Shown here: one piece after another, positions 2,877 through 16,786 of the stretch
How positions within the stretch are numbered: position 1 is the stretch's first letter
How the letters are laid out: every line of letters begins with the position of its first letter
NCBI GenBank assembly: GCA_003223215.1
Contig: QHYH01000106.1
Span: 1 to 64,000 of the forward strand
Length of the DNA stretch: 64,000 bases
Direction of reading: 5' to 3'
Origin: Acidobacteriota bacterium
Lineage (GTDB): Bacteria > Acidobacteriota > Terriglobia > Acidiferrales > UBA7541
The notes under the pieces: generated by a model
What the model was told of the DNA's origin: nothing
Seen by the model: only the letters and a program-made list of their open reading frames with translations
Database searches by the model: none
Program-made: the position numbers and the translations under genes

Positions 2877-3049
2877 GCTGAAGCCTCTCTGTTGAACTGC
2901 GCCGCTTGCTCTCGAAGAGGGAAAGCCGGCGCGTTCCGGCTTCGCGCGGGATTACCGGATGTCATGTTAGGTGCGCGGCGGAAGGAAAGTCAAACAGGTA
3001 CCAACGGCGCGGGCTAGCTACCTGGGAGAAACCGGAAAAAAGTGGAAAA

Positions 3050-3090
3050 TGGCAGGCACTTGCTTGAACCGCAGACCTCATCCGTGTCAA
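3050..3090 (-). repeat. Degenerate 3' fragment of tRNA-Val (candidate distal attachment site)
   Basis: This stretch matches, in the same orientation, the 3' half of the tRNA-Val(GAC) gene at 15711-15787: CCA end, acceptor 3' strand, T-arm and anticodon arm down to the GAC anticodon. The best part (3063-3090) has 4 mismatches over about 27 bases; the acceptor region has lost about 4 bases. No 5' half follows, so it is not a tRNA gene. A tRNA 3' fragment repeated some 12.6 kb on the 3' side of an intact tRNA is the usual footprint of a tRNA-targeting integrative element. Confidence 0.6.
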
Positions 3091-3185
3091 CCTGCCACCG
3101 ATCGGAAAGAGAACAACTTAGACCGTATCGAGCATGGTCTCCACTCGGGCCATACCGCTATCACAGCTACGGATCGCAGGTAGCG
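3087..3185. repeat. Dispersed ~100-bp repeat, copy A
   Basis: First of three copies of a non-coding repeat (others at about 6943-7052 and 15440-15551). The common core begins CAACTTAGACCGTATCGA and runs through TCTCCA and a Ser/Thr-codon-free tail containing CAGGTAG. Copy A shares with C the upstream block CGGAAAGA-AACAACTTAGA, and with B the spacing of TCAACCT-CCAC ahead of the core. It begins exactly where the tRNA-Val fragment ends. The function is unknown; it may be an end sequence of an extinct mobile element. Confidence 0.6.
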
Positions 3186-3195
3186 GCCACGCTCG

Positions 3196-3948
3196 CTACA
3201 TTCCCCTGACTCGACAAGCCCTTGCCTTCTCTTGCCATTTCTCCGCGTTCACGCCTTTCACAAGAAGCCAAAGACACAGTGATGCCTCCCCAACAAAGGC
3301 AGGGACAACATCGGCGGGGAATAACCGATTGGCCCACGCCGGGGCTAGAACCAGCGCGAAGCTATTCGTCAGATAGCTCAAACCGGCGATCTGCATCAGG
3401 ACGCCGACCGTCTTCGGAAGGTATTCCGACTTGAAGATGAGGTACCCGATAACGAGACAAAAACAGCCGAAGAAGATGAGGCTCACGCCAAACCCGTAGC
3501 TATGCGATTTGAGCGATAGGCTGGCCATGGCATGGAGCTGCTCGGGCGCAAATGCTGTGAGGTATCCGGCATTTCCGAGCGGGAACAAGGCCTCAAGGAG
3601 ATACATCGTAATCGCGGCTTCCAGGCCGATCGATACCAAATTGAAGAATGCTGCCAGCAAAGCGAGCTCTCGATGGACGGGTTTTAGCAAGACGAACAAG
3701 ATCATGAGCAGAGCAACCGCGCAAATCAGCAGGAACAATTCGGCAGCAATATGGAAGCGCCACAGCGACTCCATTGATCTGATGTTGGTGGCGGTGGCCG
3801 CTGCATCGCCCGGTACGACCAGCCTGTCCCGGACGAATGCCTCGCCGAAGAGTCCGACGACAATGATGATGAGGTACAGCACGCCGCCAACCCTCGCGAA
3901 AAGTTGTGGCGAGGTTTCGACAGTACGGTCGGTCAACGCGTATTTCAT
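3196..3948 (-). CDS. DUF4386-family integral membrane protein
   Basis: Inner-membrane protein of 250 residues resembling the DUF4386 family, whose molecular role is unknown; relatives often sit next to TetR-type regulators. About six hydrophobic segments are visible, for example VLYLIIIVVGLFGEAFV, LFLLICAVALLMILFVLL and FGVSLIFFGCFCLVIGYLIF, together with the family-like PQLFARVGGVLYL beginning. The open frame extends upstream to 4050, but those extra codons encode an IS200 transposase relic. The ATG at 3948 has an AAGG ribosome site 9 nt upstream and gives a normal family N-terminus. A pair of candidate operators lies at 4208-4242 upstream, though no regulator gene is present. Confidence 0.8.
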   Translation of the reverse strand: MKYALTDRTVETSPQLFARVGGVLYLIIIVVGLFGEAFVRDRLVVPGDAAATATNIRSMESLWRFHIAAELFLLICAVALLMILFVLLKPVHRELALLAAFFNLVSIGLEAAITMYLLEALFPLGNAGYLTAFAPEQLHAMASLSLKSHSYGFGVSLIFFGCFCLVIGYLIFKSEYLPKTVGVLMQIAGLSYLTNSFALVLAPAWANRLFPADVVPAFVGEASLCLWLLVKGVNAEKWQEKARACRVRGM

Positions 3949-3956
3949 GACGTGAC

Positions 3957-4090
3957 ACCTTTCATGTAGGTCAAATTGCGGGTCCACCTCGACTAACAGA
4001 TGGACCTGGTCGGGCAGAATCTCCAAGGCTATGACCAAGTACCGCCGCAAAGTTCTCGCCGGCGGCGTGGAGAAACAGCTATCGCTCGGA
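3957..4090. mobile_element. IS200/IS605 TnpA relic, two fragments head to head
   Basis: Two pieces of an IS200-type Y1 transposase lie on opposite strands. On the plus strand at 4031-4090 the reading MTKYRRKVLAGGVEKQL resembles the TnpA N-terminal KYRRKVL region. On the minus strand at 4050-3960 the reading ALEILPDQVHLLVEVDPQF resembles the central HxH-containing PDHVHLLVE motif (here Q-V-H-L-L keeps the second His, the first is D-Q). Neither is long enough to be functional and the catalytic Tyr region is absent. The arrangement suggests an inversion or nested insertion followed by decay. Confidence 0.6.
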
Positions 4091-4207
4091 ACAACCTATC
4101 GCTTTGGCTACGTGCCCCAGGAGCGACGCTGCCGGCCGGCACCGACCGCTTGCCTCTCCTTCGCCGCATCCTTGTCCTCACAGTCTCCCCTGGCGAGCCC
4201 CAATGGT

Positions 4208-4242
4208 AACCATACGGTTTCCATTAATGTAACCGAATGGTT
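4208..4242. promoter_or_regulatory. Paired near-palindromic boxes, candidate TetR-type operator
   Basis: Two 12-bp boxes of form AACC-N4-GGTT occur at 4208-4219 (AACCATACGGTT) and 4231-4242 (AACCGAATGGTT), 23 bp apart start to start, so on nearly the same helix face. The box pair is also part of a longer imperfect inverted repeat, ACCATACGGTT against AACCGAATGGT. Such spacing is typical of dimeric repressor sites. It could act on the DUF4386 gene (minus strand) or the phosphoesterase gene (plus strand). The cognate regulator is not visible in the window. Confidence 0.4.
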
Positions 4243-4505
4243 TCCATGTGTCAGGCGTGCGGCTGTTTTTTTGAGGGCGCTTGATCCGCGGAAGCTCATG
4301 CCGTGCGAGGGACCGGGAAAGCGCAAGCCGCAAAGGTGTTGCAGGACTCGCCGAGATCAAAGCCAATTGGAGCTCTTTTTGCACCAGGGAATCGTAGGAA
4401 ATTTATTCAGTCTTTACCGGCGTTTAACGACTCGCGCTTTAGCGTGCCGTGACCTGCCCGTACGCAAATCACGAACATCTTCAACAAGGAAGGAAGGGAG
4501 TCTGT

Positions 4506-6674
4506 ATGAATCGCTCAAAAGAACGTCTGCTCGTGCGCTTCGTGAGCGGTGTGGTGGCGGCCTGTTTGACCCTTGTCGCATCCGGCCCGTCGCTCGACGC
4601 GCAATCGTTCCCGCAATATGACCACGTTTTCCTGCTCATCATGGAAAACGAGAACTACAACCAAGTCATCGGCAACCGATACGCACCGATCCTGAATGCC
4701 CTGGCGCAGGATTACGGTCTGGCCACGAACTACAGGGGCGTTGCCGACCCGAGCGAACCGAATTACGTCGCCATGCTCGGAGGCGACTTCTTTGGCATCA
4801 ACAGCGACGACCCGTACTGGTTTCCGGGGCACACGGTCAACGCCAACAATCTGATGTCCCAACTCGAGGGAGCGGGGAAAACCTGGAAAGGGTATTTCCA
4901 GAGCATGCCCTACGCCGGGTATCGCGGCTATTGCTATCCGGACAAATGCAACGGCATCCCTGATGCCGACACCCAGTACGTCACCAAGCACAACGGGATC
5001 GTGAACTTCGCCAACCTGCAGACGCCGACCGAGCTGGGAGAGATGTTTCCGTTCACGCAATTGTCAGCCGACCTGGCGGCGGCTACCGTTCCGAATCTCA
5101 GCTACATCGTTCCGAACGAGTGCAACGACATGCACGGCGCTCCACCCTGGTGCGTGGACTCAGACAACACGGGGACGGTGCAGCAGAGCTGGCTGATCGC
5201 GCAAGGCGACAGGTTTGTGGGCAGTGTTGTCAGCCTGATCATTTCGTCTTCGATGTGGGAGAGGGGAAACAACGCCATCGTCATCACTTTCGATGAGGGC
5301 AACACGGCTACCAGCCAGATCGCAACGATCGTCGTCACGAATCACGGGCCACGCGGTGTGACGGACAGCGCGAGCTACGATCATTACTCCCTGCTCGCTT
5401 CGCTGCAGCAGACCTTTGGGCTCGCTTGCCTGGTCAACAGCTGTTCCACGAGTCCGATGGCGAAGCTCTTTGCGATTACCGGCTCGACAGATATTCCAAC
5501 TCTGCCTCCGCCGTTCAACTTCCCAACGAGCTCCGACATGATTTCGGCACAGGGGCCGGGAAAACCAGCTGCCGCAGCGTCGCGCAACGGCACCGGCTGG
5601 ACGGTCGTACCGAGCTACAGCTTCGGGCCGCTCGACAACGTCCTCGCGGGCGTTTCGGCAGCCTCTTTCAATGATGCCTGGGCCGTGGGAGCGTATTATC
5701 CGTCTTCCTCGAACGTGCTGGCGACGCTGACACACCATTTTGACGGGACCCGCTGGACGGCGTACCCCTTGCCAAATGTCGGCGTCCAGGAGAACGCGCT
5801 TTACGCCGTATCCATGCCCACGACGGGAAAAGCCTGGGCGGTGGGTTATTACGTGAGTGGCAGGTTCGTGCAGCAAACGCTCATCGAGCACTTCGACGGC
5901 ACGGTCTGGTCGGTTGTTCCGAGCCCGAGCCCTGGTGCGCTCCAGAATATTCTGTTTGGGGTGGGCGCGATCACAGATTCCGATGTGTGGGCCGTGGGTG
6001 GCGAGCAAGATGCGAACGGCCTCTGGCACACACTCACGGAGCACTGGGATGGGCCGGCTTGGTCGGTCGTTAGTGCCGTTGACGCAGGATCGAGCGGCAA
6101 TCAACTCTATGCGGTCAAGGCCCTCGCCACCGACGATGTTTATGCCGTCGGGCAACAGGCTGGCGCCGGAGTCCCCAACCAAGCGCTTATCGAACACTGG
6201 AACGGAAAAAGCTGGAGCGTTGTCTCCAGCCCCGCCGATGCCTCAGCTTCGGTACTCCCTCTCGGTGTCACGGCGACGTCTTCGACCCTGACCCTGGTGG
6301 GCGAGCAAGAGACGGACATGGCGCCTTACACGAGCTATGTGGCTGCCGGAGCGCCGGGTGCCGAATCCATACAGACAACTCCTAACGCGGGCACGGGCGA
6401 AAACGACCTGTTTGCCGCTGCGACCGCGGCGGATGGCACGACCTGGGCAGTCGGTTGGGACATCAATACTTCGACGGGCAATCACGATCCGCTCGTCCTG
6501 CAAGGTAAGAACGGCATGTGGTCTCTGGTTTCGAGCCCGAGCCTCGGGACGGGGTCGGACACCGGCTTCGCAGCAATTGCAGCTATTCCCGGCGGTGCCA
6601 TGTGGGCGGTCGGCGAAACGGCGTCCGCGAAAGGCGGGGGCAACTACTCGACGCTCATTGAATATCATCCGTAA
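4506..6674 (+). CDS. Secreted phosphoesterase with C-terminal beta-propeller repeats
   Basis: Predicted exported protein of 722 residues. A signal peptide ends near SLDAQS (about residue 32). The N-terminal domain (about 38-330) looks like the phosphoesterase/phospholipase-C-type family: YDHVFLLIMENENYNQV carries the metal-site Glu-Asn, then SEPNYVAMLGGD, then FDEGN and VTNHGPRG late in the domain. Residues 365-720 consist of repeats ending in WAVG (for example NDAWAVGAYY, SDVWAVGGEQ, TTWAVGWDI, AMWAVGETA), which I read as a beta-propeller or adhesive domain. ATG at 4506 was chosen over 4449 because of the GGAAGGGAG ribosome site and the signal peptide. It is followed by a strong terminator. 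A second protein in this window (28933-31992) has the same two domains in reverse order. Confidence 0.82.
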   Translation: MNRSKERLLVRFVSGVVAACLTLVASGPSLDAQSFPQYDHVFLLIMENENYNQVIGNRYAPILNALAQDYGLATNYRGVADPSEPNYVAMLGGDFFGINSDDPYWFPGHTVNANNLMSQLEGAGKTWKGYFQSMPYAGYRGYCYPDKCNGIPDADTQYVTKHNGIVNFANLQTPTELGEMFPFTQLSADLAAATVPNLSYIVPNECNDMHGAPPWCVDSDNTGTVQQSWLIAQGDRFVGSVVSLIISSSMWERGNNAIVITFDEGNTATSQIATIVVTNHGPRGVTDSASYDHYSLLASLQQTFGLACLVNSCSTSPMAKLFAITGSTDIPTLPPPFNFPTSSDMISAQGPGKPAAAASRNGTGWTVVPSYSFGPLDNVLAGVSAASFNDAWAVGAYYPSSSNVLATLTHHFDGTRWTAYPLPNVGVQENALYAVSMPTTGKAWAVGYYVSGRFVQQTLIEHFDGTVWSVVPSPSPGALQNILFGVGAITDSDVWAVGGEQDANGLWHTLTEHWDGPAWSVVSAVDAGSSGNQLYAVKALATDDVYAVGQQAGAGVPNQALIEHWNGKSWSVVSSPADASASVLPLGVTATSSTLTLVGEQETDMAPYTSYVAAGAPGAESIQTTPNAGTGENDLFAAATAADGTTWAVGWDINTSTGNHDPLVLQGKNGMWSLVSSPSLGTGSDTGFAAIAAIPGGAMWAVGETASAKGGGNYSTLIEYHP

Positions 6675-6709
6675 CTGTTTGCTTGCTGGCTCGTCGTGGC
6701 GTAGTGGGG

Positions 6710-6741
6710 GGCTCGGGCGGGTGACTGCCCGAGCCTTTCTT
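6710..6741 (+). terminator. Rho-independent terminator after the phosphoesterase gene
   Basis: A perfect 9-bp stem GGCTCGGGC / GCCCGAGCC with an 8-nt loop is followed by TTTCTT, 35 bp after the stop codon. Confidence 0.85.
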
Positions 6742-6781
6742 GTTGGTGGTTTCAGCTTGTCGCGAGGTCGCATAGTTTAGG

Positions 6782-6979
6782 GCCGCGCCTTCGAGGTGGC
6801 CTCCGCGCGCACGCGAGCGCGATGCCGTCGCGGCCGAGCGGCGCCAGCTGCCCTGGGTCAAAGTCGAAAAGAACTACGTTTTCGATTCCACCAGCGGCAA
6901 GAAAGCGCTCGCCGATCTGTTCGGCGGCAAAAGCCTCTTCCGGTTCAACCTACCACGCAGGCAAAATACAGCAACTTAG
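6782..6979 (+). pseudogene. DUF899-family (thioredoxin-like) gene fragment
   Basis: A frame without start codon reads RERDAVAAERRQLPWVKVEK followed by NYVFDSTSGKKALADLFGGK. This resembles the N-terminal part of DUF899 proteins (AERRxLPWVxVEKxYxF and xLADLFxGxS), which are thioredoxin-fold proteins of about 220-250 residues. The first ~30 residues and everything after LADLF are missing. The frame enters the dispersed repeat copy B and stops in the conserved CAACTTAG block, so the repeat marks the break point. It is a truncated relic and not expected to be functional. Confidence 0.65.
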
Positions 6980-7052
6980 ACCGTATCGAACGACGTCTCC
7001 ACAATCGTTATGCCTGTTTCACAGGTAGAGATCCCAGGTAGGAATCGCAGGT
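6943..7052. repeat. Dispersed ~100-bp repeat, copy B
   Basis: Second copy of the repeat seen at 3087-3185 and 15440-15551. The core from 6972 (CAACTTAGACCGTATCGAAC) and the tail CCTGTTTCACAGGTAG, then CAGGTAGGAATC, match copy C at roughly 80 percent by eye. It truncates the DUF899 relic and lies 85 bp before the promoter of the SDR gene. Confidence 0.65.
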
Positions 7053-7135
7053 TGCGCCCGGCTTCGTTCCATGCTGGCGAATCAGTTCTTCTCGTCCAAC
7101 TCTTCTGAGGCCTTTCCGCGCGGACCATACTCCAG

Positions 7136-7165
7136 TTGATATGCACCGATTTATTCGCCTATGAT
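7136..7165 (+). promoter_or_regulatory. Sigma-70-type promoter of the SDR gene
   Basis: TTGATA at 7136-7141 and TATGAT at 7160-7165 are separated by 18 bp. The expected transcript would start near 7172, just including the GGGAGG ribosome site at 7173, which supports ATG 7186 over ATG 7180 as the start of the following gene. Confidence 0.6.
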
Positions 7166-7185
7166 CCGCATCGGGAGGTATGGCG

Positions 7186-8223
7186 ATGGCGGGACGGCCC
7201 AAGCAATCTCCAGACGCTGCTAGGTCGCGCACGCGCCCAGTCGCAGGAAGGAAACCACTCACTGGCCTGGTAGCGGTCGTAGCTGGCGCGACGCGCGGCG
7301 CAGGGCGAGGCATTGCGCGAGCGCTCGGAGAGGCGGGTGCTACGGTTTATTGCACTGGACGAAGTGTGCGTGGTAACCGCTCTCCGTACAATCGGCCTGA
7401 AACCGTAGACGAGACAGCCGAGATGATCAGTTCCGTCGGTGGTTCCGCCATCGCGCTTCGCGTCGATCACACCGTGGAAAGAGAAGTGGAGGAGGTCTTC
7501 GGACGCGTGGTTCGCGAGCGTGGCCGCCTCGATATACTCGTGAACAGCATCGCCGGTGAAGACCGACTGATGGCGCAGTGGTGCTCATTTTGGAAGACCG
7601 ATCTCAAGAACGCTGAGACGGCCCTCCGGCAGTCACTCGTCTCCCACATCATCACAGCCAAGCATGCGGCTCCCTATATGATTCGCAACCGCAGCGGTCT
7701 CATAGTGGAGGTCACGGAGAACGACGTCCTTAGCGCTGGAGGCAATCCAGTAACTCAGGCGGTGAAGCTGGCCCTCAAAGGATTAGCTCTGAACATGGCG
7801 GCGGAATTACGCCCATACGGTGTTTCAGCCGTTGCGATAACGCCCGGTTTTCTGCGATCAGAAACGATGCTGGAGCGGTTCGGCGTTACCGAGGAGACTT
7901 GGCGTGAGGGCACAAAGAAAGACAAGAACTTTCTGGAATCAGAATCCCCACTATTTGTCGGACGAGCGGTTGCCGCGCTCGCGGGAGATCCTGCGATATT
8001 AGAGCGGTCTGGACAGCTTTTGAGCTCCTGGGAGCTAGGCCGCGAGTATCGATTCACAGACGCCGACGGACGTCGGCCGGACTGGGGTGCAATCAAGATC
8101 GATTTCTCGAGGCACCCGGCGGAGTTGCTGCAGCTTCTGAGAACCGGTTCGGAGATCCAGCTTCGATGGTTGAGCCAACTGACGCGGAAGACGAAGCACT
8201 TCTTAGGCCAGTTACCACGTTAG
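7186..8223 (+). CDS. Short-chain dehydrogenase/reductase lacking the catalytic tyrosine
   Basis: Rossmann-fold protein of 345 residues from the SDR superfamily, in the subgroup with a long C-terminal extension (family marks TPGFLRSETMLERFGVTEETW and LSSWELGREYRFTDADGRRP). The cofactor-binding motif GATRGAGRGIA is at about residues 33-43 and the structural NAG motif appears as NSIAG. At the active site, however, the usual YxxxK reads TQAVK: the Tyr is Thr and the upstream catalytic Ser region (VTENDVLSAGG) is also unusual. It may still bind nucleotide but classical SDR catalysis looks impaired. ATG 7186 is preferred (GGAGG 7 nt upstream). It sits alone between repeats and is driven by the promoter at 7136-7165. 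Confidence 0.8.
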   Translation: MAGRPKQSPDAARSRTRPVAGRKPLTGLVAVVAGATRGAGRGIARALGEAGATVYCTGRSVRGNRSPYNRPETVDETAEMISSVGGSAIALRVDHTVEREVEEVFGRVVRERGRLDILVNSIAGEDRLMAQWCSFWKTDLKNAETALRQSLVSHIITAKHAAPYMIRNRSGLIVEVTENDVLSAGGNPVTQAVKLALKGLALNMAAELRPYGVSAVAITPGFLRSETMLERFGVTEETWREGTKKDKNFLESESPLFVGRAVAALAGDPAILERSGQLLSSWELGREYRFTDADGRRPDWGAIKIDFSRHPAELLQLLRTGSEIQLRWLSQLTRKTKHFLGQLPR

Positions 8224-8613
8224 GAGCCGTCTACGTACGCGGGCCCGGCTAGTTCGTGATCGAACGCCGTAGTGTCTACCCATCTTTCCGACCGGATCGT
8301 CGGCTAACCGGACATCTGCCGCACCATTACCCCCGTTCCCGATAAGCGCGGTAGGCTGCTTTTTGATGCCCGTTCGCGGCGGGTTTCTTACCTCTGAACC
8401 GAGATGGAGTCTGAGGACCGAGAGTCCTAGAACTTTTTCGAGAGTTCAAAGCCAAGAAAATTTGTTCTTGAAGCGCAACTCTCTTGGAAAAGCAGGGTTG
8501 CCAACGGACAACCGTGGGGATGTCCGTGTGTTCCCATGCGCATTAGGAACTCCCCAGCGGTGGGACGGCTCACTCCGCAGGCCGTTAAAGAGAACTACGA
8601 ATAGGAGGAAGCC
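8224..8613. other. 390-bp intergenic stretch with composite motif, copy 1
   Basis: No convincing gene. It contains the first copy of a two-part motif, ACCGGACATCTG at 8307-8318 and CCCGATAAGCGCG at 8338-8350, which recurs at 10057-10107 and 12746-12782. The last bases (AGGAGGAAGCC) are the ribosome site of the next gene. Confidence 0.5.
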
Positions 8614-9546
8614 ATGAAGCGACTCATCGTTAGTTTAGTAAGTGCCGCAGCGTCACTGGTGTTTGCAGCTCACGTCCGGGCACAGGAACTCCTGGTTCCT
8701 GCCGGTACGCTATTGCAATGCACGATGAACGAACCGAAATTCTCCTCGGCTACGGCAGCGGTGGGGGATCCGGTGCTATGCCATCTGAAGAGCTTTCAAG
8801 AGTTCGGCCGGACCGTGTTTCCACGGGGGAGCATGCTGGCGGGGCACCTGGAGGCGGACAAGGAGCCCGGGCACTTCTTCGGGAAAGGAGATCTAAAGAT
8901 TACTTTCGACAGAGTGATCCTCCCGACAGGCGATCTGCCGCTGCCGGCGAAAATCATTGCGGCGAAGGGCTACAAAGTAGACAAACAAGGGGACATCAAG
9001 GGCAACGGACATGCTACCCGCGACGCGGTGGAGTGGATGATTCCACCATTGTGGCCATGGAAGGTGGCGATGCTCCCCGCGCGCGGGCCACGTCCCACTT
9101 TGAAGGGAGAAGAGCCGATGCAGTTGCGGCTCATGGATGACATAGTGGTTCCGAAGACTCTGGCCGCACGGTTCGACCATTCGGACCGGCCACCCTACGC
9201 GTCCTCTTCAACGAGGCCGAGTAGCTTCTCCGACGTGCGGCCGCCGAATGCCATACAACAAGCGGTTGCGGAAGAGAAGTCGAAAGGAACGCTCGTGGCC
9301 GCTGCGCTGAATGGAAGAGATACAGGGAACGAACCAGCAGCGCGGGTGACCGTGCTGGCCTTGACGTCAAACCAAGTGCTGGAAGTAACGAAGTTCCGGA
9401 TTGACGGTGGAGTCGTGAGCTACCGGGCGTTGAGCGGGATGGAAGGCTCAGTGGATGAAGCACAGGTAGACTGGCGCAAGACCACGGAGATGACATCGCA
9501 GGTGCGGTCCGCGGATCGGCCAATGATGTCGAGCCAGACAAACTGA
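8614..9546 (+). CDS. Exported protein with VirB10/TrbI-like beta domain, hypothetical
   Basis: Secreted protein of 310 residues with a signal peptide ending around residue 22 (AAHVRAQ). Residues 25-120 show the pattern lPAGTLLQCTM, then SATAAVGDPVLCHL, then VFPRGSMLAG, then DLKITFDRVILP. Known VirB10/TrbI-type and similar envelope beta domains have this alternation of PaGt, V-A-L, fPaGs-l-G and F-l. A basic/aromatic segment (PPLWPWKVAMLPARGPRP) follows, then a separate C-terminal part ending DEAQVDWRKTTEM. I do not recognise the whole protein. The strongest ribosome site of the region (AGGAGG) precedes ATG 8614. The LssY_C protein at 10293-11843 has a comparable N-terminal pattern. Confidence 0.7.
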   Translation: MKRLIVSLVSAAASLVFAAHVRAQELLVPAGTLLQCTMNEPKFSSATAAVGDPVLCHLKSFQEFGRTVFPRGSMLAGHLEADKEPGHFFGKGDLKITFDRVILPTGDLPLPAKIIAAKGYKVDKQGDIKGNGHATRDAVEWMIPPLWPWKVAMLPARGPRPTLKGEEPMQLRLMDDIVVPKTLAARFDHSDRPPYASSSTRPSSFSDVRPPNAIQQAVAEEKSKGTLVAAALNGRDTGNEPAARVTVLALTSNQVLEVTKFRIDGGVVSYRALSGMEGSVDEAQVDWRKTTEMTSQVRSADRPMMSSQTN

Positions 9547-9714
9547 ACGAGCGGCTATTTGGGATTAAAGAAGCCTGACGACACCCGTGGACATGGGCCA
9601 CAGGGCGGTGACGGTGTCTCCAGACTGAGGCCTCGATGCCCGAGGCTCTCGCCCAGGAGAGTTAGCGGCTAAGTCTGATATCGAGTCAGACCCCCCCGCG
9701 GAGCGGGTGGCTTG

Positions 9715-10000
9715 ATGAGTGGGGCCGCCTCAAAGGCGGTTGACCGAGTAGTTTAGGCGTCGCGCTGAAGCGCGCCTTGGTGCACAACTTTAAGACTGGC
9801 CACCGTGGGCATCCGCGTCTTGTTGTTCGCGGATGTACTGGTGGACTTGCTCCAGTTCAAAACCCACCAGAAATGCTCGCCCGTAAAGTTCCGCTCTTTG
9901 CCGCACAGACGGGCCATGGCAAGGGCACTCTTCCCCTTGAGGAACCCGATCAACGAGGCCATGGTTCTCACCAAGCCGTGGGGAGGATGTTATGCCGGAA
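9715..10000 (-). mobile_element. Decayed IS200-type transposase (tnpA) relic
   Basis: On the minus strand the reading SLIGFLKGKSALAMARLCGK, then ERNFTGEHFW, resembles the second half of IS200/IS605 TnpA (GFLKGKSAvrihR, FTGxHFWARGY). After HFW a frameshift is needed to continue with GFELEQVHQYIREQQDADA, which resembles the family's catalytic-Tyr helix (YIREQ). The N-terminal half is missing. Near the right-end side a small hairpin CCGCCTCAAAGGCGG (9727-9741) could be the old terminal hairpin. The element is not functional. Confidence 0.65.
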
Positions 10001-10056
10001 CGGTCAAACCTCTTCGAGTCTCACTGGTCGAACCAGTGGCTTACCTAAAGTCTGAG

Positions 10057-10107
10057 TTACCGGACATCTGGCGTCCAGGCTAGTACGTCATTTGTCCGAT
10101 AAGCGCG
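10057..10107. repeat. Composite motif, copy 2, in the 9547-10292 intergenic region
   Basis: TTACCGGACATCTG at 10057-10070 and TGTCCGATAAGCGCG at 10093-10107 repeat the two-part motif of 8305-8350. Here the halves also form an imperfect inverted repeat (TTACCGGACA against TGTCCGATAA). Apart from this and the IS200 relic, I see no gene in 9547-10292. Confidence 0.5.
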
Positions 10108-10292
10108 TTCTATCGTTACCTACCCGGTGGTCAATAACCAGCGTCAGCAATACCCATCGGGTTGACGGACTAGGGGACTAGGGGATCTCCGACCCTTAAA
10201 TCTGGTACGCGATTTATCGCATCTCAATTACATGACTTTTGTTGGCCTTATGATCTTCCGCCGGAGCCCCCATGGGCTCAAGCCCTGCCCAC

Positions 10293-11843
10293 CTAGTACG
10301 GAGTTACTTGGCTTGGGAAACCAGGCCGCTCGGTGAATGTGAGTTGCGGGAAGAGCGTATCTGGCGAGACGGGGGACATGGGCAAGTCGTCGCAGCTGTC
10401 GTCATTCTGAGTAGAGTGACGGTGGCGCAGGGAACGAATGGTCATAAGTGACAGGTCGAATGCGCCGTAAATGATATTTCCGCGAATGACGTCGCTCTTG
10501 TAGAGGAGAACTTGGGTGCGGAGATAGCGCACGAAGCGATTGCGCGGGCGTACGGGGATGAGGGGGGCATTCCGCGGGTACTGCATCACGGGCCTGGCAC
10601 AACTCTTCAAGTGAACGACGGTAAGGTTGCCATCTGTGTGCATTTCGTCGCCGGTGGAGTTGAGCATGGTCTGCGGCAAGTTGGGGCGAGGGAGCTGGCG
10701 CACGGATTCCACACAACCCGTCAGCGCAAGGTCGCGCACGAGCATGTTGATGCCGTCATCGAGGTTGCGGTCGATGTGGTGGATGAACTTGTGATACTTC
10801 ACGGAAAGAGCCGCGCCAGCTTCACGAGTATAGGCACTCAACCAGGCTTGTTCTCCCTGAACCGTTTTTGACTGGGACCACAAACGAAGATGTTCACGCT
10901 TGCCGTAACTATTGAAACTCTTCTGCCAAGCCATGTCCTGCAGCTGGCCGGAGAGCAACTGGCGCGAGACAGGCATGTTGGGATAATTGGAAAACGTCAA
11001 AAAGGCCCCGAACTCCTTGAAGAAAGCGTTTTTGGAGTTGGCATCGGCGGTACGCCAGCCTGCGGCCGTAAACGCGTCCTCGACCTGTTCTTGAGAGCCG
11101 ACGAAAAGCAAGTTAACTACGTCCGAATCTTTACCGCTTCGGGTGGTGGTGCGGTCTGATTGACCTTGCAGAAGCATTTCCACGTCGCCGCGTTCGTGTT
11201 CATCCATAGCAAACGAAACGCTGGGTAGCTCCGGCTGATCGCCAACGTAAAGAGGCAGATTCAAGCGAAGGCGCAGGTCAGTGCCCGGTGGCAGGTAAAT
11301 TTCGGGTTCTGGAAGCACCGTGACGGCGCGATAGACAATCAGACCCGCGTCAGTATACGGATTGAACCTGGGCAGGTGAATCAGGCCGCTGGTGATGCGG
11401 CCTTGCGGCGCGTTGGTAGCGCGAATACCGCGGAAAACGCCGTGACGCACAGCTTCGCGTGCGTTGTCCACTTCCACGACTTCCGCGGTGAACGGAAGCG
11501 CCTGGCCAGCAGCGGTAAAAAGATGATTGAACTGGATTTCCACGTACGCAGAATCGTGGATGAAGCCGAGGCCGACTTTGCGAATTTTGGAGATTGTTCC
11601 GAGGACCTCGAGGCCGGCCGGGAAGACCGGACGGGAATCACACTCCGGCGACTGAATCAGGACGGCGCGTACGGTCGTGCCGAGTTTGGAACTGTAGGAA
11701 GCGACCGGATCGATCAGACGAATCCAAAACGATTTGCCAGCGATCACATACTCGCAGCTAGCGAAGGCCGGACTGGAGAACGCGGGAGAGAGGAACAAAC
11801 AAGCTAACGCGGCAAGGAGGCCGCGGCGGGCAACAAGTCGCAT
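10293..11843 (-). CDS. Exported LssY_C-domain protein
   Basis: Secreted protein of about 516 residues. The signal peptide RLVARRGLLAALACLFLS ends near AFAS. The N-terminal part (about 25-190) has a VirB10-like beta pattern (GKSFWIRLIDPVASYSSKLG, VRAVLI, VFPAGLEVLGTI). The segment starting VVNLLFVGSQEQVEDAFTAA, GWRTAD and extending over about 180 residues looks like the LssY_C domain, named after a protein of the Legionella lss type-I-secretion locus; its biochemical role is unknown. The C-terminal tail is low-similarity. ATG 11843 gives the signal peptide but has a poor ribosome site; ATG 11888 also fits the frame. It is downstream of, and probably cotranscribed with, the SYLF gene at 11928-12494. 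Confidence 0.72.
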   Translation of the reverse strand: MRLVARRGLLAALACLFLSPAFSSPAFASCEYVIAGKSFWIRLIDPVASYSSKLGTTVRAVLIQSPECDSRPVFPAGLEVLGTISKIRKVGLGFIHDSAYVEIQFNHLFTAAGQALPFTAEVVEVDNAREAVRHGVFRGIRATNAPQGRITSGLIHLPRFNPYTDAGLIVYRAVTVLPEPEIYLPPGTDLRLRLNLPLYVGDQPELPSVSFAMDEHERGDVEMLLQGQSDRTTTRSGKDSDVVNLLFVGSQEQVEDAFTAAGWRTADANSKNAFFKEFGAFLTFSNYPNMPVSRQLLSGQLQDMAWQKSFNSYGKREHLRLWSQSKTVQGEQAWLSAYTREAGAALSVKYHKFIHHIDRNLDDGINMLVRDLALTGCVESVRQLPRPNLPQTMLNSTGDEMHTDGNLTVVHLKSCARPVMQYPRNAPLIPVRPRNRFVRYLRTQVLLYKSDVIRGNIIYGAFDLSLMTIRSLRHRHSTQNDDSCDDLPMSPVSPDTLFPQLTFTERPGFPSQVTPY

Positions 11844-11886
11844 AGCGGAGATGCCGCGAAGCGGGCTAGTCAACCTACCATGACCC

Positions 11887-11939
11887 ATAGCTACTTTTTA
11901 TTCTAGTCGACCTATCGTGCCGGATAGCTACTTTTTATT
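11887..11939. repeat. Short direct repeat duplicating the end of the SYLF gene
   Basis: An identical 16-mer (ATAGCTACTTTTTATT) occurs at 11887-11902 and 11924-11939. The right copy contains the last codons and TAG stop of the SYLF gene (minus strand); the left copy is just upstream of the LssY_C gene. It looks like a local slippage duplication. Confidence 0.6.
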
Positions 11940-12494
11940 AAGGTCGTCGTCCTTGTAGTACTTCGTACCCTGCAGGGTTAACTGGAGGGCCAGGCCATTC
12001 TTGGTGATCTGGTAGACCCATACACCCGGTGCAACCTCAACCGCTCCCGAGTAAGCTGCGCCCGACTTGCCGGCCTTGGCGGCGGCGTCCGTCTGCGCTG
12101 AACCTGACCATCCGGAGTCGAGGAATTGCGCAAGGGCTTTATCGTTTTCAAACACAAAGATCACTCGATAGTCCTTCACTCCCACGCCCAAACCGGCGCC
12201 AGCGGAAATCATCTTCATGAAGGTCTCTTGCTTGCTCTGGGTGTTGACGGCGATTCCTGAGCCGCGCGCGGTGCTCAAAAGCAACAGGTTCGTCCCCATA
12301 TTATTGAAAACGGCATATCCTGCCGACTTCTGGACAGCCGTCTGAGCTGTGGCCTCCCTCTTGTACAAGTCCTGCAGGGTTTGGGCTGCCATCTTGCGGG
12401 ATTTCTCCCTCTTTTTCTCGTTATCATCGCCGCCGTACGCGACTGCGGACAGCAAAGCCACGGCGAGCATACATGCGATCACCTTGAATCTCAT
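11928..12494 (-). CDS. Exported SYLF (YSC84-like) domain protein
   Basis: Predicted secreted or periplasmic protein of 188 residues with signal peptide MRFKVIACMLAVALLSAVAYG. The remainder is a SYLF/YSC84 domain, a fold known to bind lipids such as phosphoinositides in eukaryotes; bacterial members are exported and of unknown role. Typical features are the early KSAGYAVFNNMG, the glycine-rich GAGLGVGVKDYRVIFVFEN and the end GVWVYQITKNGLALQLTLQG. ATG 12494 follows a good ribosome site (GGAGGA). The gene is divergent to nothing obvious and is followed by the LssY_C gene on the same strand. A second SYLF protein, of a different subtype, is encoded at 14391-15371. Confidence 0.85.
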   Translation of the reverse strand: MRFKVIACMLAVALLSAVAYGGDDNEKKREKSRKMAAQTLQDLYKREATAQTAVQKSAGYAVFNNMGTNLLLLSTARGSGIAVNTQSKQETFMKMISAGAGLGVGVKDYRVIFVFENDKALAQFLDSGWSGSAQTDAAAKAGKSGAAYSGAVEVAPGVWVYQITKNGLALQLTLQGTKYYKDDDLNKK

Positions 12495-12842
12495 AAGAGT
12501 CCTCCTCCAAAAAATGCACTCTTCTGCATTACGTCGAAATCACATATAGGGGTAAAGTTCGGTACATTCTAGGTTTGTTGCCGTTACTCAGTAGAGCCAC
12601 CATCTGTCAATGCTCTGCAGGTCAGAAATTCTCCACATCAAAGGTACCTGGAGCGATGCAATCCTTCGTCTCAGTATTTCTGATTGATGGATACTCTCAA
12701 CTGTCAAATTTGCTAGTCTCACGTCGGGTCCAAGTCGATGCGCAAACCGGACAAGCTCGTACTGGGGAGGTGCCCGATAAGCAGGAATTACCGGACAACA
12801 ATTACTCACAGGGCGGCGGGTAACACCTTGTTGCAGTGAGGC
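12495..12842. other. 348-bp intergenic stretch with composite motif, copy 3
   Basis: No gene recognised; a 73-codon minus frame at 12588-12809 has no family marks. It contains ACCGGACA at 12746-12753 and CCGATAAGC at 12774-12782, the third copy of the two-part motif, followed by an extra TTACCGGACA at 12788-12797. Confidence 0.45.
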
Positions 12843-13613
12843 TTAGAAATTGCGCCTTTGGTGTAGCTGGCTCCTATTTGAATCATTTGGCCGTGGCCTC
12901 GAGTTGAATGTTGCAGTTAAATTTGACCTAAGCGTCTTAATGTTAAGAAATCTGCACAAATGCCGAAGGGGAACAAAATTTGCGACGAAAATATATTCTG
13001 CGACTCGCAAACTTCCGTCCAGCCGCCTAATCCTGCAATTACCGCTCCTCTCCTCTTTGCTTATGAAAGGCGGACCGGTTCCGTCGAAATCTAGAATTTG
13101 ACCACATGGAACAAAAGCATCAATGGTGAATTTCCTCATGTTTGCTTCCGAGATTCCGAATAAGTCCAAGGCCTTTGGATTTGCGGCGACAAAACGGCGG
13201 TCACCGTTCGTCACAACGATTGCATCTAGAGAGCTTGCCAGTAACTCCCGCAAATCATCCTCTCTTGCGCGAAGTGCCTCCCGCAGTCTCCGGCGTTTTT
13301 CGGCAATACTCCTTGCCAGTCTCAAGAGCGTGTTCTGAGTTCGCTGAAGATATACCGTCGTTTGCCCGAAAGCGGCAAAGAGTTGCGATCTGAGTTTGGT
13401 GATTTTGCCGTTCGTCACAACAATTGCATCTAGAGAGCTTGCCAGTAACTTCCGCAAATCATTCTCTCTTGCGCGAAGTGCCTCCTGCAGTCTCCAGCGT
13501 TTTTCGGCGATACTCCTTGCCAGTCTCAAGAGCATGTTCTGAGTTCGCTGAAGATATACCGTCGTTTGCCCGAAAGCGGCAAAGCGTTGCGATCTGAACT
13601 TGGTGATTTCCAT
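12843..13613 (-). CDS. PAS-domain protein with a 68-residue tandem duplication
   Basis: Protein of 256 residues. Residues 1-68 and 69-136 are near-identical tandem copies (each with FAAFGQTTVYLQRTQN, LLRLARSIAEKRRRLREALR and DLRELLASSLDAIVVTNG). Each is an amphipathic helical linker leading into a PAS start. Only the second continues into a PAS-like domain (DRRFVAANPKALDLFGISEA, then RRLDGSLRVAEYIFVANFVP). There is no kinase, GGDEF or output domain: after the PAS core the last ~40 residues look like random or frameshifted sequence. It is likely a remnant or sensory fragment of a larger signalling protein. ATG 13613 starts within the duplicated unit. Confidence 0.7.
   Translation of the reverse strand: MEITKFRSQRFAAFGQTTVYLQRTQNMLLRLARSIAEKRWRLQEALRARENDLRKLLASSLDAIVVTNGKITKLRSQLFAAFGQTTVYLQRTQNTLLRLARSIAEKRRRLREALRAREDDLRELLASSLDAIVVTNGDRRFVAANPKALDLFGISEANMRKFTIDAFVPCGQILDFDGTGPPFISKEERSGNCRIRRLDGSLRVAEYIFVANFVPLRHLCRFLNIKTLRSNLTATFNSRPRPNDSNRSQLHQRRNF
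13206..13613. repeat. In-frame 204-bp tandem duplication inside the PAS gene
   Basis: Two adjacent copies with period 204 bp (13206-13409 and 13410-13613), differing at only about a dozen bases by eye. The period is exactly 68 codons, so the reading frame is kept. Confidence 0.85.
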
Positions 13614-14016
13614 CGCGCGGGCCGGGTGAAATTTCGATCTGAGTCTCAGAAATCCACATTCAATCCGCTCTCGGCGGAGTCACAGGGGATTAGGGCAGAG
13701 AATGAAACTGGCAGAACCTGTCAAGAATGACAGGCAAGGATTTCTAGCCTGAATCCCTACGTCACCAACGCGAATCTGCGAAAAGAAGTCACCAATTACC
13801 AATTTCGCATACCGTTTAGAGACGGGTTGGGCGGTAGAAGACCTCGGGTTAAAAGAGCGCTGCTCGAACTAAGGCGATGAGCGTGGCGTCAATCCTGTCG
13901 CTTTTGACAGTTCCCCCGCACGCCGAGCGAACTTAGTCTGACTCGGATCTAATCTTTGCGATTTCTTTCCCGAGTCGGACGGTTTGGACTGCTCCAGGAG
14001 GGTTGGGAGGTGCACC
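13614..14016. other. 403-bp intergenic stretch with inverted repeats
   Basis: No gene recognised. It holds a perfect 7-bp hairpin CCTGTCA-AGAA-TGACAGG (about 13717-13734) and a longer imperfect inverted repeat, GTCTGACTCGG with CCGAGTCGGAC, around 13937-13980. The block TGGCGTCAATCC occurs here (about 13884) and again at 14024 within the next gene's first codons. Confidence 0.45.
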
Positions 14017-14394
14017 ATGACATGGCGTCAATCCCGTCGGCTGAAGCTATTTTGGCTTCTATGGATCCCCGCGGCTTGCTTTGGCCAAAATAGTGGTGGT
14101 GGTTCGAGGATTGAGTCGAATCCCCTCAGCGTGTACGCCCCGCCTTGCATCTCTCAAGTTAAGGAGAACATCGGCGTGCAGTGCCAAGTCACACCGAAGG
14201 GGGGTATGCAACCGTACAGCTATGGGTTTACTGGAGGCTTCCCAACTGGCATGTCGATGTCCATTGGTTTGGGAGGTGGCTTGATCAATGGGACGCCCAC
14301 AGGGACAACTGGCGTGCAGGCCACCGTGACGGTAACGGATGCAAGGGGGGGGATCGCAGCGACTGCTTTCATGATCACGCCAGCAGGGTTATAG
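14017..14394 (+). pseudogene. N-terminal part of a secreted Ig-like/SYLF protein (frameshifted)
   Basis: This frame encodes a signal peptide (about residues 9-24, LKLFWLLWIPAACFGQ) and one Ig-like domain of the putative-Ig (He_PIG) type: GGMQPYSYGFTGGFPTGMSM, then GGLINGTPTGTTG and ATVTVTDARGG. It ends at a TAG immediately after the domain. The next frame continues at once with a second Ig-like domain and a SYLF domain. One extra G in the GGG at 14386-14388 would fuse PAG directly to VIVTGKGPC. I therefore read it as the first half of a single gene broken by a 1-base deletion, or a sequencing error. GGGAGG precedes the ATG at a suitable distance. Confidence 0.7.
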
Positions 14395-15371
14395 TAACGG
14401 GCAAAGGACCTTGCGACAGCGCCGTCTGCGTCACGGCAGCAGGTTACGCGATCAAAACAGACGCAGGTTATACGATCAAGACGTCCACCACACTGCAGAT
14501 GACAGCCACGGGCTATTGGAGTGATGGCACGAGCCTAGATCTAACTCCGATAGCGACATGGGACTGCACTCCGAGTCCGGTCTGCGGTTCGGTATCGGCA
14601 AATGGCTTTTATACGACTGGAAGTTCCGCCGGCAGCTACCATGTGGCGGCAACGTTCTACGGAGTGACGAATGATGGCGGGTCGGGCATCGCGGTTACTG
14701 CGGCCACAATCTCGGCGCAAAGCAAAGAGCACGACCGAGTCGCAAATTCTGGCACGGTGGTGAGGGAAGTCCTGCAGCTGCGGAGTGGGATTCCCGCGTC
14801 GTTGCTACAGAAGGCAGAATGCGTGATCGTAGTGCCTTCAACCCTGAAGTTCGCCGTTGGAGTTGGCGGAAGCTACGGGCGTGGAGTGATGACTTGCCGC
14901 GGAGGGACCAACTTTCAAGGGCCGTGGGGGGCGCCGTCAATGATCGCGCTGGGGGGTGGCAGCTTTGGTTTTCAGGCCGGCGGGCAAGCCACGGACTTCG
15001 TTTTTCTCCTGATGAATCAACGCGCCGCGAGCAGCATTCTCAAGAGTAAAGTGAAGCTCGGCGCTACTGCGTCGGTGGCAGCAGGGATCGTTGGACGCGA
15101 ACAAACTGTCGCAACGGATGCATTCCTACGTGCGGACATAATTTCGTACTCACGCGCTCGCGGACTCTTTGCTGGCGTGTCGGTTGAAGGCTCCACGCTA
15201 CGACCCGACAACAGGGCAAACCGAAAGCTTTACGGCAAAGCTGTGAGTGCGAAAGCAATTGTGCTGCTGGGTGAAGTTCCGCCGCCATCGTCCGCGCTGG
15301 AACTGCTGTCGGTACTGAACAGCAAGTCACCCGTCAACAAATCGGCGGGCAGTTCACCCCAGGGACGGTGA
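14391..15371 (+). CDS. Big-like Ig domain plus SYLF domain, C-terminal part of the frameshifted gene
   Basis: Continuation of the preceding gene in another frame. The open frame starts as far left as 14181, but its first ~70 codons are an out-of-frame reading of the Ig domain and are not real. From 14391 a bacterial Ig-like (Big2-type) domain is seen (SDGTSLDLTPIATWDC, NGFYTTGSSAGSYHVAATF). It is followed by a full SYLF/YSC84 domain of the classic type: ASLLQKAECVIVVPS, GGSYGRGVMTCR, APSMIALGGGSFGFQAGGQA, DFVFLLMN, LGATASVAAGIVGRE and ISYSRARGLFAGVSVEG. No start codon lies at the domain boundary. If the frameshift is genuine the SYLF part is not exported normally. The intact protein would be a secreted Ig-Ig-SYLF architecture. 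Confidence 0.72.
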   Translation: MVTGKGPCDSAVCVTAAGYAIKTDAGYTIKTSTTLQMTATGYWSDGTSLDLTPIATWDCTPSPVCGSVSANGFYTTGSSAGSYHVAATFYGVTNDGGSGIAVTAATISAQSKEHDRVANSGTVVREVLQLRSGIPASLLQKAECVIVVPSTLKFAVGVGGSYGRGVMTCRGGTNFQGPWGAPSMIALGGGSFGFQAGGQATDFVFLLMNQRAASSILKSKVKLGATASVAAGIVGREQTVATDAFLRADIISYSRARGLFAGVSVEGSTLRPDNRANRKLYGKAVSAKAIVLLGEVPPPSSALELLSVLNSKSPVNKSAGSSPQGR

Positions 15372-15439
15372 ATCACAGCAGCGAGATAACCGGGCGGTTG
15401 GTCGGCAAACCTTCCCTTGGGATAGAGTTGCCCGTCAGT

Positions 15440-15551
15440 CGCCAGGCTGTCACCGTGCGGAAAGATAACAACTTAGATCGTATCGAACGTCCTCTCCAGA
15501 CGCGTTATACCTGTTTCACATGTAAGAATCACAGGTAGGAATCACAAGTTG
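15440..15551. repeat. Dispersed ~100-bp repeat, copy C
   Basis: Third copy of the repeat of 3087-3185 and 6943-7052. The core starts at 15469 (CAACTTAGATCGTATCGAAC). The upstream CACCG-CGGAAAGA matches copy A and the tail (CCTGTTTCACATGTAAGAATC, ACAGGTAGGAATCACAAGTT) matches copy B. A short echo, AATCACAGGTAGAA, recurs at about 15678-15691 just before the tRNA 3' end. I see no gene in 15372-15710. Confidence 0.65.
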
Positions 15552-15710
15552 GTACTCGCTGCAATGGAACTATGTGTCCGAAGGCCGGGGAAGTCAAAAC
15601 CCTTCCGAAGGCGAAAATGCTACGGGACGGAAAGCGTAAGGTTGGAACGCCTACAGAAAACGACAACACCGATAGGAAATCACAGGTAGAAAATTTAGCG
15701 GGACGAAAAA

Positions 15711-15787
15711 TGGTAGGCCCGGGAGGACTCGAACCTCTGACCTCTTCCGTGTCAAGGAAGCGCTCTAACCAACTGAGCTACGGGCCT
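15711..15787 (-). tRNA. tRNA-Val(GAC)
   Basis: A 77-nt cloverleaf with encoded CCA. The acceptor stem AGGCCCG / CGGGCCT is perfect, the D-arm is GCTC-AGTTGGTTA-GAGC, the anticodon arm is CTTCC-TTGACAC-GGAAG with anticodon GAC, and the T-loop is TTCGAGT. One T-stem base pair (A-C) is mismatched. The 3' end faces left, towards the accessory region, and a partial copy of its 5' half lies at 15863-15901. Confidence 0.93.
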
Positions 15788-15862
15788 ATAGCCTATGGGG
15801 TCACATCAGCAACTCAAACGATTAGACCCCAAATTTCTAATCGCTAGGCCCACAGCGCTACG

Positions 15863-15901
15863 GTGTCAAGGAAGCGCTCTAACCAACTGAGCCACGGGCC
15901 T
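15863..15901 (-). repeat. Partial copy of tRNA-Val: 5' half only
   Basis: 39 bases identical, except one, to the 5' half of the neighbouring tRNA-Val from the acceptor 5' strand through the D-arm to the GAC anticodon. The T-arm and 3' acceptor are missing, so this is not a functional tRNA. It lies 75 bp upstream of the intact gene and looks like a recombination remnant. The rest of 15788-16126 shows no gene. Confidence 0.75.
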
Positions 15902-16126
15902 GTCGCTCTCTAACTCTAGCACACTTGCCTGGTCACTCCGGTGAGGAACGAAGCGTCCCCGCAAGTCAAATACGATTCCGCGATAAACCCAGAAACCACG
16001 GAGAAACCTCGATCATCCTTCCCGGCAGAACGCTCATAAACGGCATGAGGGCTCGCGAATCTTCGTTTCTCCGCGGTAGAATCGCCCTGCATCCAATACA
16101 ACGGATGAGGCCGCTTCACACGCAAA

Positions 16127-16786
16127 GTGAAAGTTCAAATTGACGCAGGTTTAAAGAAAAAATGCCCGCGCGCCGCTTTGGGCTGCCTGACAGCGCGCGT
16201 GAAAACGGGCCCGTCGCCGGAGGAGTTCCTCGCCGAGATGAAAGCGCGAGCGCTCGAAATCGAGCGCCTGCCTTTCCCGCGCAGCGTATTGGAATCGCCA
16301 CAAATCGAGATGACGCGCCGGGCCTACAAGGCGCTCGGGAAAGATCCCGCGCGTTATCGTGGCTCGGCCGAGGCGCTCCTGCGCCGGGCGGTTGCTGGCA
16401 AGGGCCTGCCGCAGATCAACGTCGTGGTGGACATCATCAATCTGGTTTCCGTTGAAAGCCGCCTTCCGGTGGGCTTGTATGACGCAGCGCATTTGCGGGG
16501 TGACGTCGTTTTTCGCGCGGGGGGAGCGGGCGAAACCTACAAGGGCATCGGCAAATATGATTTGAACCTCGAGGGCCTGCCGCTTTTCGCCGATGACCAG
16601 GGCCCGCATGGCAGCGCCACCAGCGATTCCGAGCGCACCATGGTCACGGCTAAAACCGAGGGGATTCTCGCCGTCATCGTCTCGTTCGGCGGGGCCGAAG
16701 GCCTGGACCGTTGGACCCAGCGCATGTCGACACTGCTCTCACAGCATGCCTCCGCGCAAAAGGTCGAAATTCGTATTGTCCAGTAG
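16127..16786 (+). CDS. B3/B4-domain protein (PheRS beta-like)
   Basis: Cytoplasmic protein of 219 residues made almost entirely of a B3/B4 domain, the fold found in the phenylalanyl-tRNA synthetase beta subunit; stand-alone members are uncharacterised and may edit or bind aminoacylated tRNA. Features seen are SPQIEMTRRAYKALGKDPARY, SAEALLRRAVAGKGLPQINV, VVDIINLVSVESRLPVGLYD and KYDLNLEGLPLFADDQGPHG, all typical of the family. The start is GTG at 16127 without a clear ribosome site. It lies just outside the tRNA-Val boundary and may be the first core gene to the right. Confidence 0.8.
   Translation: MKVQIDAGLKKKCPRAALGCLTARVKTGPSPEEFLAEMKARALEIERLPFPRSVLESPQIEMTRRAYKALGKDPARYRGSAEALLRRAVAGKGLPQINVVVDIINLVSVESRLPVGLYDAAHLRGDVVFRAGGAGETYKGIGKYDLNLEGLPLFADDQGPHGSATSDSERTMVTAKTEGILAVIVSFGGAEGLDRWTQRMSTLLSQHASAQKVEIRIVQ

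Follow-up and report, generated by a model that had tools for sequence, protein, structure and literature searches.

Organization of the tRNA-Val locus

The stretch of DNA analysed here (the window) comprises positions 1 to 64,000 of contig QHYH01000106.1, beginning at the contig's first base, in the assembly GCA_003223215.1 of an Acidobacteriota bacterium (UBA7541). Between the genes for a PQQ dehydrogenase and a B3/4-domain protein it contains an intact tRNA-Val(GAC) gene, partial copies of that gene, three copies of a repeat named D2 and eight cargo genes (Table 1). What lies between 3.05 and 15.7 kb is very probably the eroded remnant of two or more integrative elements which entered successively at the anticodon loop of this tRNA gene. 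For comparison 36 genomes of the genus were used, labelled G000 and so on, G000 being the source genome of the window and counted among the 36.

Table 1. Coordinates of features in the window and of integrases at the corresponding site in relatives
Feature	Position	Strand	Remarks
PQQ dehydrogenase and upstream region, host left flank	771..2995	-	Pfam; homology to relatives
Displaced tRNA-Val 3' half, positions 33-77, outer boundary	3050..3090	-	Alignment to intact gene
D2 copy a, element end	3091..3183	-	Abuts outer half directly
DUF4386 protein, cargo	3196..4050	-	Pfam
Phosphoesterase-family protein, cargo	4449..6674	+	Pfam; common to this locus in G024 and G030
Almost erased 3' half, inner boundary	6908..6948	-	13 of first 15 nt match; adjoins D2 copy b
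D2 copy b, element end	6949..7054	-	Abuts inner half
SDR oxidoreductase, cargo	7180..8223	+	Pfam
Protein without family match, cargo	8614..9546	+	Pfam, NCBIfam
LssY_C protein, cargo	10293..11888	-	Pfam
SYLF/Ysc84 protein, cargo	11928..12494	-	Pfam
Orphan PAS protein with internal duplication, cargo	12843..13613	-	Pfam
Second SYLF/Ysc84 protein, cargo	14181..15371	+	Pfam
D2 copy c, element end	15431..15550	-	No recognisable half; ~170 bp from tRNA
Candidate integrase C-terminal relic (weak)	15572..15757	+	Runs into antisense of tRNA 3' half
Intact tRNA-Val(GAC), attachment gene	15711..15787	-	ARAGORN; single tRNA detected in window
tRNA-Val 5' half, positions 1-39	15863..15901	-	97%; 75 bp upstream of intact gene
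B3/4-domain protein, host right flank	16127..16786	+	Pfam
PF00589 integrase, G014	L038:10320-11606		At intact tRNA
PF00589 integrase, G028	L035:4737-5774		~300 bp from tRNA
PF00589 integrase, partial, G028	L036:250-828		At a half
PF00589 integrase, G034	L091:6944-7756		At a half
PF00589 integrase, G034	L092:670-2073		At a half

A DNA search of the assembly found one full-length copy of the tRNA-Val(GAC) gene, the next-best match being tRNA-Val(CAC). The first-pass annotation, made from the window's letters, had reported a 3' fragment of this gene at 3050-3090, and the alignment bears this out: the fragment has the same orientation as the gene, includes the CCA end and starts within the anticodon loop. 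The count of four mismatches plus a short deletion given there has to be corrected, the alignment with the window's own gene having 33 identities, 8 mismatches and a 4-nt gap. Taken alone the fragment is of moderate significance (E 0.052 with blastn-short and 0.001 with +1/-1 scoring, the next unrelated match being at 0.17). Most of the doubt is removed by the clean 33-77 halves of genus mates, that of G030 lying beside D2, and a chance match was accordingly dropped as an explanation.

The inner 3' half had its boundary placed by hand, the other half boundaries being BLAST ends, and the homologous position in G030 carries a clean half. On the other side of the intact gene lies the 5' half; the 7-nt anticodon loop TTGACAC is both the start of the 3' half and the end of the 5' half. 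Rfam scores the 5' half as a tRNA below its threshold (24.5 bits, cut-off 29) and with an internal gap, so that it may equally well be read as a decayed tandem copy of the tRNA or as a second attachment scar. A 25-nt piece of the tRNA 5' part is also found about 115 bp upstream of the tRNA-Val gene of G014.

The repeat which the earlier annotation had described in three copies is D2, about 108 bp long (3076-3183, 6934-7041 and 15431-15538; identity 69-71%). That annotation had placed the outer fragment and the repeat correctly, and had overlooked that D2 abuts the fragment, as well as the half at 6948-6908 and the 5' half at 15901-15863. D2 behaves like an element end: copies a and b, the copy of G030 and a distant copy on contig C232 of G000 all begin at the core sequence. 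The possibility that D2 is a common dispersed repeat was rejected, there being four matches in the whole genome, three of them inside this window. In 49 locus stretches of relatives, often cut by contig ends, D2 matches (E 0.001) were obtained in G024 and G030 only, in the latter at the tRNA locus and on contig C135. The 281-bp region 15431-15711 is matched in 4 of the 36 genomes, namely G000, G024, G030 and G003 (30 bp only). The distant copy (L072:7163-7270) abuts a bare GTGTCAA core without a tRNA half and looks as if it had been inserted at a secondary site.

Units similar to TACCTGTGATTC are found on one strand at both element ends, that is, in D2 and in the tRNA-side end, and may correspond to integrase arm sites, which they resemble. 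The motif itself was derived from these repeats, so the excess of sites in the window (11, with 2.15 expected; only 6 of them in D2 or the tRNA-side end) is descriptive only.

The composition of the region is atypical, a property which the first-pass annotation had proposed to look for at 3.1-15.7 kb. For positions 3091-15710 the tetranucleotide distance to the remainder of the window is 0.207 and the GC content 56.8 vs 59.2%, a contrast limited to sequence of the same contig; the control, 36 equally sized overlapping windows starting from 16 kb, gave 0.098-0.138. With 4-kb windows the contrast is weaker (0.204-0.255 for those from 2001 to 16000, 0.152-0.199 for the others).

The locus in related genomes

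Insert-free chromosomes were found in G008, G012, G013 and G026. In the first three the order is PQQ dehydrogenase, lysC and tRNA-Val, with lysC approximately 20-100 bp from the tRNA; in G026 lysC is equally close and the PQQ gene lies beyond the stretch compared. Additional DNA is present in G008 and some others, either between lysC and PQQ or on the opposite side of the tRNA. It had been predicted that the B3/4 gene would sit close to the PQQ genes where the island is absent, and this is nearly what G012 presents: its tRNA-Val adjoins the B3/4 gene and is separated from PQQ by 1.7 kb that contain lysC alone. On the PQQ side, the host homology of the window ends at 2993-2995 against all five genomes compared (G008, G012, G018, G024 and G030).

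A parallel layout is seen in G030 (stretch L027). Starting from its tRNA gene (13249-13325), D2 (10080-9985) directly adjoins a half (9984-9939), and further out follow a phosphoesterase (8540-9693), another half (7522-7478), lysC and PQQ (2540-4642). The window and G030 therefore have a matching order of tRNA, D2 with half, phosphoesterase, half and PQQ dehydrogenase. The G030 phosphoesterase is truncated and its frame interrupted, with 79% protein identity to that of the window; G024 has a phosphoesterase (80%) and D2 pieces at the locus. At the DNA level the phosphoesterase gene is 77% identical to those of G024 and G030, against about 80% for the flanking PQQ region, and the unit would therefore be about as old as the species split. 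Judged from these identities, it was probably present in the common ancestor with G024 and G030. The inner insert of G030 (L027:10360-12445) includes an incomplete copy of the metB region, which in the window is found beyond the B3/4 gene.

Displaced 3' halves were detected by a pattern search in 8 of the 36 genomes (G011, G014, G017, G028, G029, G030, G034 and G035; the reversed control gave none), and in nine when the window's decayed half, missed by the pattern, is added. The G029 assembly, 74% complete, has a 3' half and no intact copy was found in it. Of 17 halves compared, 14 started at position 33, two at 31 and one at 16; fragments starting in the anticodon loop place the site in the anticodon-loop attachment class. 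G034 has three halves serially after the tRNA, one of them interrupted. Its halves at L091:7764-7808 and L092:713-757 have a different acceptor stem (3 mismatches) with integrases alongside, and perhaps come from another host lineage.

Beside the tRNA or one of its halves, PF00589 integrases were found in three of the nine genomes, five in all (Table 1). The frames of those in G014 L038, G028 L036 and G034 L092 extend into the tRNA 3' half in antisense. An integrase search of genome contigs returned two loci, G014 itself (JABCZG010000006.1, an Acidobacteria metagenome-assembled genome) and a deltaproteobacterium with a 25-residue match. In the window, the frame 15572-15847 matches the tail of the G014 integrase with E 4e-5 in the first 24 kb and 8e-4 in the larger set; the alignment covers 53 residues, of which about 15 fall within the tRNA gene. 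After removal of the tRNA-encoded residues, the score was reached by 8 of 5000 shuffles for the G014 tail and by 942 of 5000 for the G028 tail, and the open reading frame (ORF) at the tRNA has no PF00589 or other Pfam match. We regard this relic as a lead and not as a finding. The earlier statement that no integrase remains thus holds for an intact enzyme, as searched by tblastn, and has to be tempered by a weak C-terminal candidate that touches the tRNA.

Proposed successive integrations at the tRNA gene

Islands in tRNA genes with anticodon-loop crossovers and same-orientation 3' fragments are of a standard kind (PMC4383910, PMC8371274, PMC9897764). The locus shares with the islands of the Islander survey (PMC4383910) an intact tRNA, a 3' fragment in the same orientation, downstream of the gene and extending to the gene end, an anticodon-loop crossover and, here in relatives, tyrosine integrases at the site; the distance of 12.6 kb between half and gene lies within the 2-200 kb used there. 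It differs in having at least two stacked units and no intact integrase in the window. Islander looks for an integrase gene between the tRNA gene and the fragment, and tblastn gave nothing there beyond the weak C-terminal tail, for which reason we file the window as a remnant and not as an intact island. Integrated elements with part of a tRNA gene at their far end have likewise been described (PMC9897764); in G030 and probably in the window, the partial copies differ from these in carrying T-stem versions other than that of the host's intact gene. The integrase frames entering the tRNA in antisense recall the integrase gene of SSV, which crosses its attachment site (PMC4383910), whereas recombination here would concern bacterial elements at tRNA-Val. 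Among the 3919 islands of the Islander survey, 125 tandems consist of at least two elements and only 4 of at least three, so that the three-half series of G034 is uncommon.

We propose that a tyrosine integrase exchanged strands within the 7-bp loop TTGACAC. The incoming element would bring a new 3' half that completes the tRNA gene, while the old half would be displaced to the far end, next to the element's other end (D2). Repeated integrations would stack elements and halves outward, and the integrases would have been lost by decay. The stack would then read, from the tRNA gene, the 7.1-15.7 kb part, D2 with the decayed half at 6.9 kb, the phosphoesterase unit, D2 with the half at 3.05 kb, and PQQ.

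The old island at tRNA-Val that the first-pass annotation had recognised is thus backed by the attachment-site geometry, the insert-free relatives and the composition. Its delimitation as one element does not stand, the region being better described as a composite of at least two integrations whose outer ends need not belong to one element. A single eroded element from 3050 to 15711, with the inner D2 copies as ordinary dispersed repeats, would agree with the outer half being the only one readily recognisable, the inner one scoring near nothing, and with the fourth D2 copy elsewhere in the genome. However, in G030 the homologous inner place is occupied by D2 and a clean half, a second half lies outside the phosphoesterase, and this layout comes close to a phosphoesterase unit that has halves of its own and lacks the 7.1-15.7 kb part; the start of the D2 copies at the core sequence also argues against ordinary repeats. 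Given the inner D2 with its half and the layout of G030, we set this reading aside as quite unlikely. Still more improbable is that the partial copies stem from a tandemly duplicated, decayed tRNA-Val, with unrelated insertions coming between them later. The upstream 5' half does resemble a decayed second gene to Rfam, and G014 has its own 5' piece, but the 3' halves of relatives mostly begin at the anticodon loop, a breakpoint which duplication fails to predict, and they adjoin integrases and a common element end.

A tentative alternative, which we consider rather doubtful, is that the D2-type units are non-autonomous passengers with attachment ends only, moved by integrases of other elements that share the tRNA-Val site. 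The D2-type ends of G000, G024 and G030 have no recognised integrase beside them, while other element families at the site have one, and the roughly 280 bp that take in both D2 copy c and the tRNA-side end leave too little space for a set of genes. Decay would also account for the missing integrase, the scan having covered part of the ORFs, and the frame beside the tRNA could be the tail of an integrase.

Several observations weigh against successive integration at this gene. An intact integrase did not turn up in the window, where tblastn with three integrase queries yielded the weak C-terminal tail only and a genome search with PF00589 gave none among the matches listed. In G024 and G030 none was recognised beside the D2-type ends, by eye and in part of the ORFs. 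D2 copy c has no tRNA half, the half at 6908 is too weak to stand alone, and G024 has no tRNA half at E 0.01 despite its D2 pieces. The assemblies are fragmented and several contigs terminate close to tRNA halves. Finally, the loss of lysC from the left flank requires a further deletion or rearrangement beyond integration, mis-assembly being a possible alternative account. In G000 lysC is found on contig C41 (L071:8099-9990), near the contig end, where its neighbours are ORFs judged by eye to be transposase-like and two short fragments resembling PQQ.

Among the titles and beginnings of abstracts listed in literature searches, none dealt with this locus. The present data document an integration hotspot in an uncultured genus, and indicate that decayed islands can be dissected from their tRNA halves long after the loss of the integrase.

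T-stem types of intact genes and displaced halves

What is unusual at this site is the stacking, together with a mismatch in T-stem type between halves and intact genes. Among intact genes type A is the commonest; type B occurs in G000, G018 and G024, type C in G030 and type D in G008, which has no insert on that side of its tRNA. In G030 the half at 7478 agrees best with type A (score 41; next 37) and that at 9939 with type B (39; next 29). The window's outer half scores 27.5 with types D and E, 23.5 with A and 21.5 with B, its own intact type. The displaced halves in G030, and probably in the window, thus differ in type from the intact gene, as predicted if the 3' half is replaced at each integration. 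We are slightly inclined to suggest that serial integrations repeatedly rewrote the 3' half of tRNA-Val(GAC), T-stem included, in this genus, and that the displaced halves may form a readable record of former tRNA versions. If this holds, mobile elements would have shaped the apparently sole tRNA-Val(GAC) of the cell, and the order of past integrations would be legible at one locus.

Some points speak against such swaps. Base 30, in the 5' half, covaries with the 3' type, so compensatory change also occurs. The outer half of the window is decayed and the inner one untypable, and most displaced halves elsewhere match an intact type A and are uninformative. A tree of PQQ, LysC and B3/4 proteins from 18 taxa (10 with three proteins, 3 with two and 5 with B3/4 alone) split G000, G012, G018, G024, G030 and G032 from the rest with a support of 100; inside this group the support is 41-62, so the order of swaps is not polarisable.

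On contig C135 of G030 (L090:3331-3422), a type C-like 3' half is followed by the element end as at that genome's tRNA, no intact tRNA being found in the stretch. This looks like an attachment site or tandem junction elsewhere in the genome.

Cargo genes

Pfam agrees with the first-pass annotation on the phosphoesterase, the LssY_C protein, the two SYLF proteins and the PAS protein, and gives no match for the protein at 8614-9546, which had been called VirB10-like. The DUF899 and IS200 relics reported earlier were not recovered, no Pfam match being obtained in the small ORFs scanned, which were part of the reading frames. Phage structural or conjugation genes, which would mark a prophage or an integrative and conjugative element, were absent from the eight cargo proteins by Pfam and NCBIfam.

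Searched at E 1e-8 in the 49 stretches, two of the eight proteins had matches and the other six had none. The phosphoesterase, matched in G024 and G030 and at 27% in G011, is the only one found at this locus in relatives (G024 and G030); the phosphoesterases found in the rest of the genus are remote, with 26-42% identity. The second SYLF protein has a 64% homologue in G034 and G035, about 2 kb from the tRNA halves there.

The PAS gene contains two 202-bp copies of one segment (13204-13609), 204 bp apart and 95% identical, a recent in-frame duplication. A 37-bp sequence is repeated in tandem, with 84% identity, where the LssY_C and SYLF genes meet (11866-11939).

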